Shown: positions 6,650 through 17,169 of the stretch, piece by piece | Layout: each line of letters opens with the position of its first letter | Numbering within the stretch: position 1 is the stretch's first letter | Source of the DNA: a virus | IMG/VR virus record: IMGVR_UViG_3300023440_000009 | Location: 1 to 43,000 of that record | DNA: 43,000 bases | Direction: 5' to 3' (one strand) | The notes under the pieces: model-generated | Databases searched by the model: none | The model's input: the letters and a program-made list of their open reading frames with translations, nothing else | What the model was told of the DNA's origin: nothing | Made by a program: the position numbers and the translations under genes

Positions 6650-6949
6650 TTATTTGATGATGTAGATTACTCTAGTACTAAAAAAATCAAGTCCGTAATT
6701 AGGGTATCTTCCGATACCTAGCTGTGCCCCATTAGAGAAGTGGTTCCATTCAGTTTGGAGCACAATATTTTCTGTCAACTGGGTTCTATTACCGACGCTA
6801 ATGTGGAATTGTTCGTGTCCAGTTAGGTGTGTCTTCGGGATATTAGCTACGTAGGCTGGCCCAATGCCTACTTCTAAGCAACCAGAAAGACAAAGGGCCA
6901 GCGCAACAATCGCAACTTTAAATCCCGCAGACACCCCCTTTGCAAACAT
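6650..6949 (-). CDS. Predicted outer-membrane lipoprotein with PagL-like lipid A deacylase signature
   Basis: From the ATG at 6949 the 99-residue protein has a short signal peptide (MFAKGVSAGFKVAIVALALC) and a lipobox LSGC with the lipidated cysteine at residue 24. The mature part contains EWNHFSNGAQLG and RYPNYGLDF. The H-x-S-N motif (His70, Ser72) followed by an N-x-G resembles the active-site region of PagL-type lipid A 3-O-deacylases, which also use a Glu I cannot place with certainty. The usual family is longer (about 150-185 residues) and not lipidated, so this would be a short derivative. The N-terminus overlaps the 3' end of nrdJ by 32 bases in another frame. An alternative is a small Rz1-like lipoprotein. 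Upstream starts at 6967 and 6976 are possible. Confidence 0.55.
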   Translation of the reverse strand: MFAKGVSAGFKVAIVALALCLSGCLEVGIGPAYVANIPKTHLTGHEQFHISVGNRTQLTENIVLQTEWNHFSNGAQLGIGRYPNYGLDFFSTRVIYIIK

Positions 6950-7780
6950 TTTCTGCGGACTCTTCATAAACAGCATTCTGTTTTTTTACGGCCTCATCAT
7001 AAGGAACAGCAACAAGAGGCTGCCCACCTCGAGCACCATTAGGATATACAGTAATACCACGGAGTCTTTCGCAATAGTTTGCAAGCGTATAAGCCAATTG
7101 CTTAGCTGTGTCTTCATTATTCTCCTCCGTACCCCACTCTGGGAGATTGATTGTTGAACTAATCCCCATATCTACATACTGCTGAATGTCTGCCTGAAAT
7201 GCGATGCGCTTTTCAGGAGTTGCTGCAAGAGACATCGCTGTCTCAATGCTATCCGGAGAGAGTCCGTGTTCTTTAATAATACGCTCTGCAGTCGGGTCGA
7301 TTACGAATTGATATTTCCATCTGTTTCCGTCAAGGAATCTTCGCTTGTAGGCGACTGTATAGATTGGCTCAATTCCTGTAGTCGTTGACGCAAGGATTCC
7401 GATTGTACCCGCAGGCGCAACAGCTCTGTATTTGCGTGGGCGATTGATGTAGAATCGGTCACAATGCTCATTTGCCGCTGCTTCAGACTCTTCGGCGTAA
7501 ACTCTAAGCCATTCATGAAGCTCTGGTACGACTTCGTATCCATAACCACGCTGAAGCAACCATTCGTGGAGTCCCATGAGGCCGAGGCCGATCTTCCTGT
7601 TGCGCTCTCGTACCACCCGAACTTTCTCGTAGGGGAGGTCTCCACGCAGAGTGCCACACACAAGAAACTTAGCAGCGAGATGTACCACGTCTCTGAGCTC
7701 ATCAATTGTGGAAATATTAGCCACATTGATAGAACCAAGATTGCAAACGTCACTATCGTCCTCAGAAGTAAATTCCGTAC
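6918..7780 (-). CDS. nrdJ: Class II (B12-dependent) ribonucleotide reductase, exon 2
   Basis: This is the 3' exon of nrdJ. Joining 9351-8571 to 7780-6918 keeps the frame and gives about 547 residues. The exon starts with GT, which completes the split codon for the catalytic cysteine: exon 1 ends RNA-T and exon 2 adds GT-ACG-GAA, restoring N-A-C-T-E, the NxCxE active-site motif. Twelve residues later lies the redox cysteine in DVCNLGSIN. The motif PAGTIGILASTTTGIEP (residues about 370-385) and the C-terminal pair VCKGGVCGI, which re-reduces the active site, are typical of the family. The enzyme makes deoxyribonucleotides using adenosylcobalamin. Its 3' end overlaps the lipoprotein gene. A free-standing start at MANISTID would lack the catalytic cysteine. 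Confidence 0.9.
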
Positions 7781-8570
7781 CAAACGTTCATATGTCCTGT
7801 CATTTCTGAACAGGCCCCGTGTCACCACGGGTATCGGACTATCTCACCACCCTTTTCAGGGGCCGAACACACGACTAAGGCAGCTTATATACGAAGCTCG
7901 GTTTGACGAAAGGCTGAACACCACGTTTAAATTTCTCGTAATCCTTAGCCCGTAGTGTGAGAAACCATCTGTGGTAGTGCCTATGAATATTCCACTCAAG
8001 GTCCAGCTTATCTCTAAGTGCCTTCTTTAGTAAGAGTTGATCTCCATACGAAAGCCGTTTTAAATTGAGTTTCGCTGCGGGGGTGGCGTTACAACGTCTG
8101 TCTACATTACACGAACCATCGTCCATAAACAGAATAGCGAGCATCTCCCAATCAAGAAGTTTTAGGTAATGGGGATCTACAGACTTATAATTGCCGACAT
8201 ATAGTCTGTTACGCACTCGCGTATACATTGGATGTGTTCGTGTTAACGTACACAAAACTGGTTGCCTATTCTCTCGATGATCATTGGTCTCATAGACACG
8301 AACATGTGTAAGGTTTGAGAGAATATCCGCTCGCCACCCAATATAGTCTTCGTGTTTCGCAAGTTGGTTACACACGAAACGACAGTGCTTTCCGGAGTAA
8401 TAAACTCCACCATCTCCCATCACAAAGGCACTTACATATTTCGTCAATTCACGCTTAGTCATAGTCTCTACACCTCCCATAACGGGTTGGCACGGGATTG
8501 GGTCAGTGACCTTTCCCCGTTTTTCGTTCGGTTATTCGACGCTGATTACTCAGCGAAGGCGCATACATTT
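7781..8570 (-). ncRNA. Group I self-splicing intron in nrdJ
   Basis: A 790-base insertion interrupts the catalytic cysteine codon. Exon 1 ends with U at 8571 and the intron ends with G at 7781, as the class requires. P1: exon GCGU pairs with intron GCGC (intron positions 9-12) with U.G at the splice site, extended beyond one mismatch by GAA/UUC. P10: exon 2 GUAC pairs with intron GUAU (positions 5-8). P7: GACUAU (8466-8461) pairs with AUAGUC (7842-7837) in a context like the T4 phage introns. P9: CCCGUG, GUGA tetraloop, CACGGG (7831-7816), followed by a second hairpin CCUGU/ACAGG. The endonuclease gene lies between the two P7 strands, in the P8 loop region. Confidence 0.9.
7875..8462 (-). CDS. 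LAGLIDADG homing endonuclease inside the nrdJ intron
   Basis: The 195-residue protein has two LAGLIDADG-type helices, KYVSAFVMGDGGVYY near residue 10 and EMLAILFMDDGSCN near residue 115, each ending in the acidic residue that binds the metal. Two motifs in one chain indicate a monomeric enzyme that would cut intronless nrdJ alleles and promote copying of the intron. I start it at 8462, where ATG follows GGAGG by 10 bases; an in-frame ATG at 8480 lacks a ribosome site. The start codon lies on the 5' strand of the intron's P7 helix, so translation initiation and intron folding compete. The reading frame is intact, so the element may still be mobile. Confidence 0.88.
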   Translation of the reverse strand: MTKRELTKYVSAFVMGDGGVYYSGKHCRFVCNQLAKHEDYIGWRADILSNLTHVRVYETNDHRENRQPVLCTLTRTHPMYTRVRNRLYVGNYKSVDPHYLKLLDWEMLAILFMDDGSCNVDRRCNATPAAKLNLKRLSYGDQLLLKKALRDKLDLEWNIHRHYHRWFLTLRAKDYEKFKRGVQPFVKPSFVYKLP

Positions 8571-9351
8571 ACGCATTCCGGCAAGTCTCATATTCATTCT
8601 CAAAGAAATTGTAACAGTGTCCAGGTTCTCCTGTTTCACACATTTTTCTAACAGACTCAAACCAGAGTTCTGGAAGCTCGTGTTCATACAGGCAGCATTC
8701 AACAAATTCAGTATCCCAGTTGATACTAATATTTGTCATATCCAAAGGAGCGGGAAAATTAAAATCCTGCTCCTTTAGTTTTTTAATTTCTAGGGACCAA
8801 TCCTTGATTTTTATAAAGTCCCAAATGTCCCCATGCTGCCAATTCAAGGAAGCAAAAATTGCAGAACGGCGTGAACCCCCTTGACGTACATTGCGCCCAA
8901 TTTCATTGATGCTGCACATAAGAGGGATGGGACCAGAAGCCACCCCGCCAGTTCGTTTAAGAACGCGGCCACTTTCCCGAAGAATTGAGTAATCAACACC
9001 GATACCACCTCCAGACATCAGGCAATCAGAGGCACGTTTACAAAGATTGCCCCACTCTTCTCGAGTATCTTCCTCGGCCTTTAGCGCGAAGCAGTTATTA
9101 TAAAACTTTGCGTCGCGTCCGGCATAGTAGAGATACCGTCCACCAGGAATAAATTTCATTTGGATAATATACTGAACCAGTTGGTCTTGATCATCCTTGC
9201 TCATGAGTGGTGGCAACGTACCCCAACGTGTGCCGCAGACATCTTCGACAAGTCTACGGGCAAGAATGGGCCAGGTATCCTCTGGCCCTTGCGCATATTT
9301 AAGACGGAATACATTTTCTGCGAATGTCGTTCTAAATTGAAACTTACTCAA
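8571..9351 (-). CDS. nrdJ: Class II (B12-dependent) ribonucleotide reductase, exon 1
   Basis: This is the 5' exon (260 codons plus one base). Visible motifs are FIPGGRYLYYAGRD, NNCFAL with the redox cysteine at residue 87, the SGGGIGVDYS substrate-loop region, and RQGGSRRSAIFASL, all expected for NrdJ. It ends ETCRNA plus T, directly before the catalytic cysteine. Without splicing, translation meets a TAA two bases into the intron. No N-terminal ATP-cone is present and no second subunit gene is seen, consistent with a short monomeric class II enzyme. The start is unusual: no ATG is available, and I favour the TTG at 9351, six bases after GGGGG; TTG at 9357 is the alternative. It feeds the deoxynucleotide pool with the nearby MazG and dATP/dGTP diphosphohydrolase genes. 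Confidence 0.9.
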
Positions 9352-9365
9352 CTCCAACCCCCAAC

Positions 9366-9530
9366 TTACTCATCCTCAAACATTTGCATCAGAACATCCC
9401 CACATTTGTCACAAACAACCACATCATCATCAGACAATTCAAGATCCTTGAGTTCCTCGTCTTCAATCAGAATTTCACAAAACGGACAAATAAATGTCCC
9501 TTCCTGCTCACCGCGAATAGTACGAATCAT
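9366..9530 (-). CDS. Small zinc-ribbon protein (54 aa)
   Basis: A 54-residue product beginning MIRTIRGEQEGTFICPFC and ending VVCDKCGDVLMQMFEDE. Two CxxC knuckles about 27 residues apart separated by an acidic stretch form a likely zinc ribbon. It starts directly after the stop of the upstream gene (TGAATG) following a GGAGG site, and its end lies 14 bases before the nrdJ start. It may be a nucleic-acid or protein adaptor; no function can be assigned. It is one of many tiny Cys-rich genes in the leftward arm. Confidence 0.75.
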   Translation of the reverse strand: MIRTIRGEQEGTFICPFCEILIEDEELKDLELSDDDVVVCDKCGDVLMQMFEDE

Positions 9531-14617: not shown

Positions 14618-15352
14618 TTAAATTTTGAGTTTCTCAACGTCTCCCCACGATAACCCAGCTTCAGCATCTCCGTCAATGGGGACATTCATCTCCCAATTAA
14701 AATATTTCTTTGCTAACTCAGGCAATTCTCTGAAATACTTTAAACAAATACGCGCAACTTTTTCAACGTGCTTCTCCTCTACATCTATTATTATACTATC
14801 ATGCACAACATTTGTCAAGTAAATTTTTTCGGAGATTCCTTTTAACTCCTTCCTGATAAAAATTAGGGCCAGTTTTGCCAAATCACATGCGGTTCCCTGT
14901 ACTGGATAATTTCGTATCTGCCTTTCTGAGTAGTCTAGATAGCCCCCTTTTTGTGGTAGTTTCTTAAATTCCCAAATTCTACCGGTAGGCCCCCGATAAA
15001 GTCCCGTTCTACGAACTTCGCGAATCCATTCTTGATGTGCCGCAGAAAGCCCAGAGTATTTTTGGAAAAATCCTGTAAGAATATTTTTCCATTTTTCCTG
15101 CGAAAAGTTGGGCATCTTGGGGTCCATATAATAACCGTACCAGCCAGTCGCAGGATCACAATAAATTGCGCGAAAGTTGAAAATCTTGGCGTTTGATCTG
15201 TTAGCGTCATTGAGTGGCAATTCCATCAAGTTGACACACGTTGCTGTATGCTGATCTACACCATCCCACAATTCCTTGATCATGATCTGATCTTGGGATA
15301 ACGCAGCAGCAACACGCCATTCTATTTGCGCAAGGTCAACATCAAGAATCAT
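14618..15352 (-). CDS. DNA polymerase family A, C-terminal catalytic fragment (split gene)
   Basis: The 244-residue protein carries the palm and fingers of a Pol I-type polymerase: motif A (LDVDLAQIEWRVAAALSQ), motif B/O-helix (RSNAKIFNFRAIYC) and motif C (NVVHDSIIIDV). It begins exactly at motif A with ATG, two codons after an in-frame stop, and needs the exonuclease-thumb fragment encoded at 15985-17169. Unusual residues: the normal F-G-x-x-Y-G of the O-helix is F-R-A-I-Y-C, motif A lacks the usual Tyr-Ser (DLAQ instead of DYSQ), and motif C has Asp-Ser instead of Asp-Glu. The two metal-binding aspartates, the Arg, Lys and Tyr of motif B, and Phe at the E. coli 762 position remain, so activity is plausible when both parts assemble. 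Confidence 0.88.
   Translation of the reverse strand: MILDVDLAQIEWRVAAALSQDQIMIKELWDGVDQHTATCVNLMELPLNDANRSNAKIFNFRAIYCDPATGWYGYYMDPKMPNFSQEKWKNILTGFFQKYSGLSAAHQEWIREVRRTGLYRGPTGRIWEFKKLPQKGGYLDYSERQIRNYPVQGTACDLAKLALIFIRKELKGISEKIYLTNVVHDSIIIDVEEKHVEKVARICLKYFRELPELAKKYFNWEMNVPIDGDAEAGLSWGDVEKLKI
14790..14818 (-). promoter_or_regulatory. Consensus sigma70 promoter inside polymerase motif C
   Basis: On the minus strand TTGACA (14818-14813), 17 bases, TATAAT (14795-14790): a full match to both hexamers. It lies within the codons for the catalytic motif VHDSIII. It would serve the genes at 14214-14606 and downstream. Confidence 0.6.
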
Positions 15353-15527
15353 CTTTTAGGAAACACTCGTTGAAATAAAATTTCCAACAGTCTTTACAGG
15401 AATGATTTTCGTTCCACGAATCATCATCACAACAAATATATGGTTCTGGCGGACAAGTACCCTCGGCTGCAAGGAAAGTACATGCAACATCCAAGGCTTT
15501 CTCCAGTTGTTCTGTTAGTGCACCCAT
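15342..15527 (-). CDS. Small Cys-rich protein inserted in split polymerase, third gene (61 aa)
   Basis: I start this at ATG 15527 (MGALTEQLEKALDVACTF), nine bases after AAGGG; ATG at 15536 is too close to that site. The product contains GTCPPEPYICCDDD and NHSCKDCWKFYFNECF, seven cysteines in 61 residues, probably a small metal-binding domain. The stop codon overlaps the start of the polymerase C-terminal gene by 11 bases, so translation of the polymerase fragment depends on this gene. It has no endonuclease motif. Confidence 0.7.
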   Translation of the reverse strand: MGALTEQLEKALDVACTFLAAEGTCPPEPYICCDDDSWNENHSCKDCWKFYFNECFLKDDS

Positions 15528-15532
15528 AACCA

Positions 15533-15757
15533 TCATCCCTTCCGAAGTTCATTCAAAAGATACTCACGAATGAGGCAACTACCACCATTCACGATCACAG
15601 CATCGTCATGTGTGCATCCACAACCACAGTAAAAACTTGGTTGCTGTGTCTTAGGACAGATTTGATATTCCTCTTCTTCCCAAAACATGCATGCATCTGT
15701 CATACAATTGTCTTTTTTAAAGATACAATATTTTCTTTCTGCTTGTCCGTACAGCAC
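15533..15757 (-). CDS. Small Cys-rich protein inserted in split polymerase, second gene (74 aa)
   Basis: The start is GTG at 15757, about seven bases after AAAGGGG. The 74-residue product has about ten cysteines, including YCIFKKDNCMTDACMFW and PSFYCGCGCTHDD, suggesting one or two bound metals. It is followed without a gap by the next small gene. The cluster of three such genes separates the two polymerase fragments. No known family or homing endonuclease signature is seen. Confidence 0.72.
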   Translation of the reverse strand: MLYGQAERKYCIFKKDNCMTDACMFWEEEEYQICPKTQQPSFYCGCGCTHDDAVIVNGGSCLIREYLLNELRKG

Positions 15758-15769
15758 TCCAAACCCCTT

Positions 15770-15949
15770 TCAAAAATGCTCCTCATCTTCATCGGTTGCT
15801 GCCCAGTATACTTTGCCCATAAACCCTATTCGCTCAAACTCGGTCAAATACCCATCTACCGTTGTCTCTGGAGGAGCTTTGCACCTTGGGCATCGAGCAC
15901 ATTTCTTTTTTGTGTTCGGCTTACAGGGCTGGCAAAACTCGAACGCCAT
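15770..15949 (-). CDS. Small Cys-rich protein inserted in split polymerase, first gene (59 aa)
   Basis: This 59-residue product begins MAFEFCQPCKPNTKKKC and continues ARCPRCKAPPETTVDGY, with three CxxC-type knuckles in the first 25 residues, then an acidic tail (AATDEDEEHF). It starts 35 bases after the stop of the polymerase N-terminal gene. The ribosome site is the weak GGGGAGAC. It is the first of three tiny Cys-rich genes between the polymerase halves. Confidence 0.68.
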   Translation of the reverse strand: MAFEFCQPCKPNTKKKCARCPRCKAPPETTVDGYLTEFERIGFMGKVYWAATDEDEEHF

Positions 15950-15984
15950 CTAGTTTGTCTCCCCACTACAAATTATTTCCCGAA

Positions 15985-17169
15985 CTACTGCAGGCATGTA
16001 TTGCGCGCCTCTGCAAATCGAGTCACAAAACACTTTTTTACTGGACCTGTATTTCCTCTTGGGATGTTCTGACCATTCGGATTCGACGAACTAAACCGAG
16101 ATGTCGCAGTTACAGTGTTATTGATAGTTGGATGAATTACCCCATCAATCTGACGTTCGTACAATCCAATGAAATACATAGATAGAAGCTGACTCATTCT
16201 ACTACGCTCATACAGCAATTCAACAACACGCTTCTGCACCTTTGTCTTTGGCTTTAGCAGAGAGAGTGCCTGCACATTTGTTTCGTAAATCCCCGCATGT
16301 TTAGTTTCACTAATCCCTAATCTTTTAGGATCAAAGCCAATTCCTTTGACAAGCTTGTCTACTTTACACTTTCGCGTATAGGTTTTCACCTCCCCGCTTT
16401 TTAGTGTGCGAGTATACTCTTCAACTCCATCAACCTTGTAGGTGCCGCCGAACAATCCGCAAGAAAGCTGCTGTGCAGACCCTGGATTTTCAATACCAAG
16501 CAGTTCGGAAAGCTCTTTGTCAATTTCTTCTAGAGTCCTACTATACTCATCTTTATAAGAGCACAAAGTCTCCAAATCAAGAGCCATTCCATTATATTCC
16601 ATTGCAGCGATAGCAGGAATAACAGCCATGTCAAGCGAGATAGGAGTTTCAAGTTGCTGTTCTTTGATACTTTTTACTTGGCGTTTGAAAATTTCGAGGC
16701 AGAGCACCGTGTCTTTGACGACATACTCAAGCAGAATATCCAAAGGAATATCTGGAGTATCAATACCTTTGTTCCAGAATTCTGCAACACGGTCATCTTT
16801 CTGCCCCAATCCGTATTGCTCAGCGAGCGCATTGAGGGACAATCCATCAAGGCGCTGATGGTGTCGGATCACATATTCTGCAGTCTGCGTACAAAACAGA
16901 AGTTTATTATCAATGTCAATCCCAAGATGATGTAACCACATATAATCAAACTTGAGATTGTGTGCAATAATCCGATCCGCTTTTTTTAGGACTTCCTCGA
17001 ATCGATACAACTCCTCTCGAAAAGATTTGTAGCTATCTTTGTGATAAAAGACAAAAGTATCAGAGTGCCCAGTATCAGTTACCACAGCAGCGCACACTGC
17101 CTGTGAATCGGGAATATATGGAAGGTGTTTAGGGTCTTTTGTGGTCTCAAAGTCAACTGCGATATTCAC
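15985..17169 (-). CDS. DNA polymerase family A, exonuclease and thumb fragment (split gene)
   Basis: The 394-residue protein has the 3'-5' proofreading motifs IAVDFETTKDPK (Asp/Glu), RIIAHNLKFDYMWLHHLG and LEYVVKDTVLCLEIF, then the thumb and first part of the polymerase domain, including TATSRFSSSNPNGQNIPRG. It stops after KKCFVTRF plus nine unrelated residues (AEARNTCLQ), just before where motif A should follow. Comparison with E. coli Pol I suggests only about four residues are missing between this end and the C-terminal fragment. The start is GTG at 17169, overlapping the helicase stop (TAGTG). Three Cys-rich genes separate the two fragments; no group I intron pairing is visible, so two proteins that associate is the simplest reading. 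Confidence 0.88.
   Translation of the reverse strand: MNIAVDFETTKDPKHLPYIPDSQAVCAAVVTDTGHSDTFVFYHKDSYKSFREELYRFEEVLKKADRIIAHNLKFDYMWLHHLGIDIDNKLLFCTQTAEYVIRHHQRLDGLSLNALAEQYGLGQKDDRVAEFWNKGIDTPDIPLDILLEYVVKDTVLCLEIFKRQVKSIKEQQLETPISLDMAVIPAIAAMEYNGMALDLETLCSYKDEYSRTLEEIDKELSELLGIENPGSAQQLSCGLFGGTYKVDGVEEYTRTLKSGEVKTYTRKCKVDKLVKGIGFDPKRLGISETKHAGIYETNVQALSLLKPKTKVQKRVVELLYERSRMSQLLSMYFIGLYERQIDGVIHPTINNTVTATSRFSSSNPNGQNIPRGNTGPVKKCFVTRFAEARNTCLQ

Follow-up and report, generated by a model that had tools for sequence, protein, structure and literature searches.

The topoisomerase genes 39 and 60 of phage T4 are split by mobA and hold a 50-nt insert that is bypassed (PMC2988022, PMC5009743, as far as their accessible text goes), and this gene 60 insert is described in the available part of PMC5009743 as a possible protection. 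In phage Aeh1 nrdA is split by mobE; the accessible sections of PMC2988022 also treat the split gene 43A/43B, and activity is reported there for split NrdA as well as for 43A/43B. A split polymerase III is described in the available portion of PMC7824862, introns and endonucleases form the background given by the accessible text of PMC11878797 and PMC7468147, and the word "split" is absent from that of PMC6302109. A split polymerase gene in MEP401, MEP402 and most group I relatives is described in the available portion of PMC10580990, where an intron was raised as a possibility.

The window, that is, the whole stretch of 43,000 nucleotides of viral DNA analysed here, carries a family A DNA polymerase (PF00476) in two ORFs, as judged from profile matches and from motifs A, B, and C. 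PolA-N (15985..17169, minus strand; 394 aa, GTG start) comprises the 3'-5' exonuclease, the thumb and the first palm segment (PF01612, and PF00476 positions 46-147), and PolA-C (14618..15352, minus strand; 244 aa) the palm and fingers with motifs A, B, and C (PF00476 positions 154-381). In agreement with the original prediction, the ORF translations placed the C-terminal end of PolA-N (...KKCFVTRFAEARNTCLQ, followed by the stop) nine residues past KKCFVTRF and the first residues of PolA-C (MILDVDLAQIEWR) at motif A, whose codons (MILDVDLAQIE; 15320..15352, minus strand) are uninterrupted in the window and are, in relatives, the site of endonuclease insertions and indels. The gap between both genes spans 632 bases (15353-15984). 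Both translated ORFs matched PF00476 (profile length 381) above the cut-off; on the window DNA, profile positions 46-148 came from PolA-N and 150-381 from PolA-C, and the halves combined filled the profile but for 1-6 positions, close to the approximately four residues predicted to be missing. Pfam, PHROG, and PDB profiles matched both halves. In an alignment of 15 PolA-C rows, D6, E11, R52, K56, F60, Y64, H184, and D185 were conserved in every row; we take D6 to be the motif A aspartate, K56, F60, and Y64 the K..F..Y of motif B, and H184 and D185 the HD of motif C. Each polymerase hallmark is present once over both halves. Together with the retention of both genes in relatives and with genes that can abut or overlap, this supports the proposal that the two proteins could rebuild one enzyme. 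The segment after motif B in the window PolA-C (IYCDPATGWYGYY) is longer than in L088 and L011.

When modelled alone with AlphaFold2, PolA-C reached a mean pLDDT of 92.6 and a pTM of 0.88, and Foldseek matched the model to family A polymerases in the PDB (5dku_A, E 5.5e-14, TM 0.77). For PolA-N alone, whose PDB matches were phage and bacterial family A polymerases, these values were 83.9 and 0.67, with residues 349-371 and 386-394 below 50. A confident PolA-C together with a poorly modelled palm stub in PolA-N is as expected if the stub needs its partner, and these models thus suggest that the palm stub would need PolA-C for folding.

Three small genes occupy the spacer on the minus strand: small gene 1 (15770..15949; 59 aa, 5 Cys), small gene 2 (15533..15757; 74 aa, 8 Cys, GTG start) and small gene 3 (15342..15536; 64 aa, 7 Cys). 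The tight packing predicted for them held, the third gene overlapping the PolA-C start by 11 nt; the 6-10 cysteines expected in each did not, the counts being 5, 8, and 7. Their codon usage was gene-like (scores 0.118, 0.130, and 0.151, as compared to 0.148 for PolA-N and 0.111 for PolA-C, with a maximum of 0.029 among ten wrong-frame ORFs used as control). None of the three matched a Pfam family, no PHROG match was convincing (a single one, E 0.08), and tblastn gave zero matches among 50,697 phage records. Pfam and PHROG profiles detected no endonuclease in the window spacer, as had been anticipated, and a search of it for remnants of the motif A start was negative. These genes had been proposed to be either remains or replacements of a homing element; replacement, by genes that settled where the polymerase gene was already divided, fits better than remains. 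The Cys-rich genes have the look of later arrivals in an old gap. They fall outside the cluster formed by the common spacer gene of related loci, the usual occupant in the spacers of 70 such loci (e.g., L004:3766-3999) being a small acidic gene of about 60-100 aa, whose conservation suggests a role alongside the split polymerase.

Relatives of the window proteins in viral contigs were not found by single-protein queries and were recovered by alignment queries; tblastn matched 1,165 phage records with PolA-C and 850 with PolA-N. The survey, made up of two IMG/VR profile searches, the phage records, the window and its two own copies, comprised 156 sequences, 136 split, 18 intact, and 2 with the C part only; these counts represent no natural frequency, since the loci were the best 80 per search, chosen by their likeness to split genes. 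With the window and its own copies set aside, 133 loci of this survey, some of them from cultured phages, were split at the site used in the window. The distance between PolA-N and PolA-C in the 116 distinct split loci (of 137) ranged from -17 to 3,598 nt, with 15 loci at 5 nt or less (abutting or overlapping), 67 at 60-350 nt and 26 above 350 nt. Methylophilales phage MEP402 (one small gene in between) and MW202697 present a split like that of the window, the pieces are 3.6 kb apart with a cytosine methyltransferase in between in MW202796, and the two polymerase genes of Alcaligenes phage QDWS535 overlap by 1 nt. Of the 74 viral loci retrieved by a later search, many on contigs already surveyed, 64 were split, 2 intact, and 8 incomplete, as compared to 78 intact, 0 split, and 2 incomplete among 80 bacterial control loci. 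The polymerase split is, as judged from sequence comparison, inherited. In Vibrio phages ICP2, Saratov-12, and VP41s3 PolA is split about 15 residues earlier; the early-split PolA of L253, L254, and L259 (ICP2_2013, VP41s3, and Saratov-12) is annotated partly as hypothetical proteins. No second intact PolA-C copy was seen in 11 records with odd loci, which may themselves be incomplete; only one of them (G007) had two PolA-C matches, each to another part of the query.

The closest relative of the window is L156 (41% identity in PolA-N, 55% in PolA-C), other close relatives being L088 (split) and L263 (split, with a gap of 3,027 nt), and the intact relatives that the original prediction had advised to look for were found, L011 and L264 lying near the window. 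A 36-row tree placed all of them in one clade (support 100/98) with the arrangement ((L088,(window,L156)),(L264 intact,(L263,L011 intact))). Split and intact genes interleave, and the split state changed more than once near the window; at least three split/intact changes are needed in this tree, or four if the Icepovirus type is counted as a separate state. These changes may be splits or fusions, the tree being compatible with both. A single origin of the split by ordinary mutation or gene shuffling, with endonucleases as later invaders only, is the alternative that survives best, and we consider it rather unlikely. The absence of an endonuclease from most split loci and the grouping of the large MEP-type set as one clade (100/100) are in its favor, and a later endonuclease invasion was considered for gene 43 of Aeromonas phage 25 in the accessible part of PMC2988022. 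Against it stand the intact L011 and L264, which interleave with split loci (L263 and the window group), the Icepoviruses, cut about 15 residues earlier, and the AU tests: placing the 23 non-ICP2 split rows in a single clade was rejected (p-AU 0.0015), and so was placing in a single clade the four split rows that lie near the window (p-AU 0.0188). On an earlier set of 42 rows, from which L263 and L264 were absent, the single split clade had not been rejected (p 0.367), and the p value was 0.0447 with the ICP2 type added; the group tested in the second tree was fixed before that tree.

Endonuclease genes are found in the gap of several relatives. The L156 spacer contains a zinc-ribbon gene (PF09723) and an HNH_3 ORF (PF13392) whose first codons duplicate the motif A start, the PolA-C start coming after it; a gap endonuclease, as in genes in pieces of the mobE/mobA kind, is present in L156 and lacking in the window. 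HNH_3 ORFs lie in the gap of L014 and L065/L066 too, with motif A uninterrupted. L033 and L059 carry in their gap an ORF of 147-149 aa, family A5, which has no Pfam family and whose stretch DRID..GY..N we take to be EndoVII- or HNH-like. A search with this ORF gave ten loci; in nine of them (five on contigs already present in earlier surveys) it lies between PolA-N and PolA-C, truncated in one (L251), and the tenth (L252, 36% identity) had no polymerase match. Promoter-like boxes were seen by eye ahead of the A5 ORF. When the empty allele L036 was compared with the occupied L244, left flanks were near-identical and the insertion lay inside the catalytic Asp codon, after which the cassette supplies its own PolA-C start. 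Upstream of the scar, a single difference in 2,679 positions separates L244 from L245; downstream of it they differ at 45 positions in the first 800 and at 732 of 1,857 overall, a pattern as expected of exchange ending near the scar. The view that motif A is a target of homing elements is supported at the sequence level by the HNH ORF in the L156 spacer and by the endonuclease-like A5 family in nine relatives. The HNH ORF of its nearest relative also makes a homing-endonuclease origin of the window split likely. Elsewhere in the window (6918-9357), a class II ribonucleotide reductase is encoded by two ORFs that flank a LAGLIDADG_2 endonuclease ORF (7875-8480), and no Rfam intron match was found in 6900-9400.

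Six surveyed loci (L005, L033, L059, L088, L110, and L156) had a break in the PolA-C frame after the catalytic Asp codon and before the Glu codon that follows. A motif A indel occurred in 9/9 A5 loci (+6, +4 in four, +2, and -1 in three), and a search for the interrupted motif A pattern, restricted to one codon type, retrieved 74 stretches; 5 of these were PolA-C genes, each of which was accompanied by the A5 ORF. In the 116-locus set, 3 loci had endonuclease and indel, 2 the endonuclease only, 3 the indel only and 108 neither (Fisher p 7.6e-4), endonucleases being recognised by eye in a listing that hides short single ORFs. One break elsewhere was found in the surveyed polymerase genes (L046) by a control that detects stop codons within matches as well as adjacent fragments and is weak near gene ends, as it missed five loci recognised otherwise (L005, L059, L088, L110, and L156). 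The +4 indel is identical in four records (L244-L247). Pairs with the same indel displayed PolA-C dN/dS values of 0.03-0.13 where computable, which, because cassettes move, are no proof of selection after the break. The first PolA-C codons remain coding despite the break as seen by eye, those of L243 and L248 differing at synonymous positions only. In L243 and L088 a stop codon lies between two identical Leu codons. Matched codons that would allow slippage are present in L243, L244-L247, L088, L005, and the -1 group L249-L251, and absent in L248, L110, and L156; they are also expected if the indels come from duplication. The PolA-C of MW202697 (L005:3985-4040) is annotated from an internal start, due to the motif A frame break. 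At L263:4001 and L097:2261 PolA-C apparently begins from ATA after a Shine-Dalgarno-like stretch, a usual start codon being absent at motif A.

A broader reading, which we advance tentatively and hold to be improbable as a whole, is that, in phage PolA, the catalytic Asp codon would be a recurrent landing site of unrelated homing endonucleases that split the enzyme repeatedly, that the cassette would restore the PolA-C start with an indel spoiling cleavage, and that a ribosomal slip or hop would tolerate the broken frame, in two phages over a Leu-flanked stop. If true, stops of the L243/L088 type would be natural stop-hops; according to the available text of PMC5009743, no natural in-frame stop-hop is known.

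The same frame-breaking indels in the PolA-C of some relatives could mean that one half is dead and that the phage relies on the other half or on the host polymerase. This is very unlikely: motif A is intact in the window and motifs are kept in both halves, relatives keep both halves, and even in indel-bearing loci the pairwise PolA-C dN/dS, where finite, was 0.085-0.134 vs. a median of 0.142 in 13 control pairs.

Slightly less probable still is that the 632 bases constitute a self-splicing intron with small ORFs, the mature mRNA encoding one polymerase, even though phage DNA polymerase genes often hold group I introns, according to the accessible text of PMC10580990 and PMC11878797. In line with the original prediction of no visible intron, no Rfam family reached its gathering score in the whole window, and the folding energy of the split region was ordinary (z-score -1.19). 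At a relaxed cut-off, 15300-16100 gave a single Rfam match at chance level (E 3), so that the conserved RNA structure of a group I intron was found at neither cut-off. Splicing is further contradicted by the overlapping or abutting genes in relatives, which leave no space for an intron, by the absence of intron matches in Rfam, and by the ordinary genes that fill the 3.6-kb gap of one relative.

An assembly error or chimera, named in the original prediction as a possible refutation, could be suspected for a window known from an assembled virus record alone, and is highly improbable given that independent records carry the same split (L156, L088, L263, and the isolate genomes of MEP402 and QDWS535) and that the ORFs flanking the L088 split resemble, by eye, the neighbours of the window genes. 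Split inteins are known in DNA polymerase genes, and one joining both proteins post-translationally has a practically negligible probability here, as PolA-N stops nine residues past KKCFVTRF and PolA-C opens at motif A, leaving no room for intein halves, and neither protein has a Pfam intein match.

All these factors taken together make it quite probable, in our opinion, that the window holds a family A polymerase gene in pieces encoding two putative non-covalent subunits, the split arising from invasion by a homing endonuclease that was later lost and replaced. One operon would yield the exonuclease-thumb subunit PolA-N and the palm-fingers subunit PolA-C, translation of the latter being probably coupled to the small gene overlapping its start, and both would most likely assemble without a covalent join into one replicative polymerase. 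The endonuclease would have invaded the motif A codons, causing the split, and would subsequently have been lost and replaced, in the window lineage by the three small Cys-rich genes. What looked like an isolated oddity becomes a repeated natural experiment in which phages kept a replicative polymerase that had been cut, probably on several occasions, next to its catalytic aspartate. The function of a two-chain polymerase, the role of homing endonucleases as drivers of splits, and whether recoding in their own polymerase is the price that phages pay for endonuclease immunity can all be tested. Gene callers and PolA surveys using one half alone will miss or misread such phages.

Among known systems, the polymerase of phage LUZ24 is in pieces too, two of which flank an endonuclease VII gene; as a precedent for the same site it was discarded, its break points being others (a separate exonuclease, gp25, and the motif C end on gp36, by eye). 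The MEP401/MEP402-type of Methylophilales phages resembles the window in having the family A polymerase in two ORFs with small gene(s) between, broken between an SRF-like PolA-N end and motif A. The window, however, belongs to a different clade, with L156, L088, L263, L264, and L011 (100/98), its PolA-C shares 34% identity with that type and its three spacer genes lie outside the common spacer-gene cluster. As far as the available descriptions go, Aeh1 nrdA and gene 43A/43B are cases in which two polypeptides were reported to rebuild an active enzyme, whereas the window concerns another enzyme family and a putative activity. T4 genes 39/60, in the accessible accounts, and the relatives of the window have in common that the split falls in a critical region of the gene, that the gap holds an endonuclease and that the downstream gene carries a small indel; in contrast, the gene affected here is a family A polymerase, the indels range from -1 to +8 nt, as compared to 50 nt in T4, bypassing is putative, and the window itself has neither gap endonuclease nor downstream indel. 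A literature search largely outside subscription journals found no report of endonuclease-linked indels in PolA motif A or of a repeated origin of the split. Thus, while the MEP401-type split is already published, as the available part of PMC10580990 attests, the repeated change of state, the gap endonucleases, the insertion in the Asp codon and the motif A indels appear to be new.
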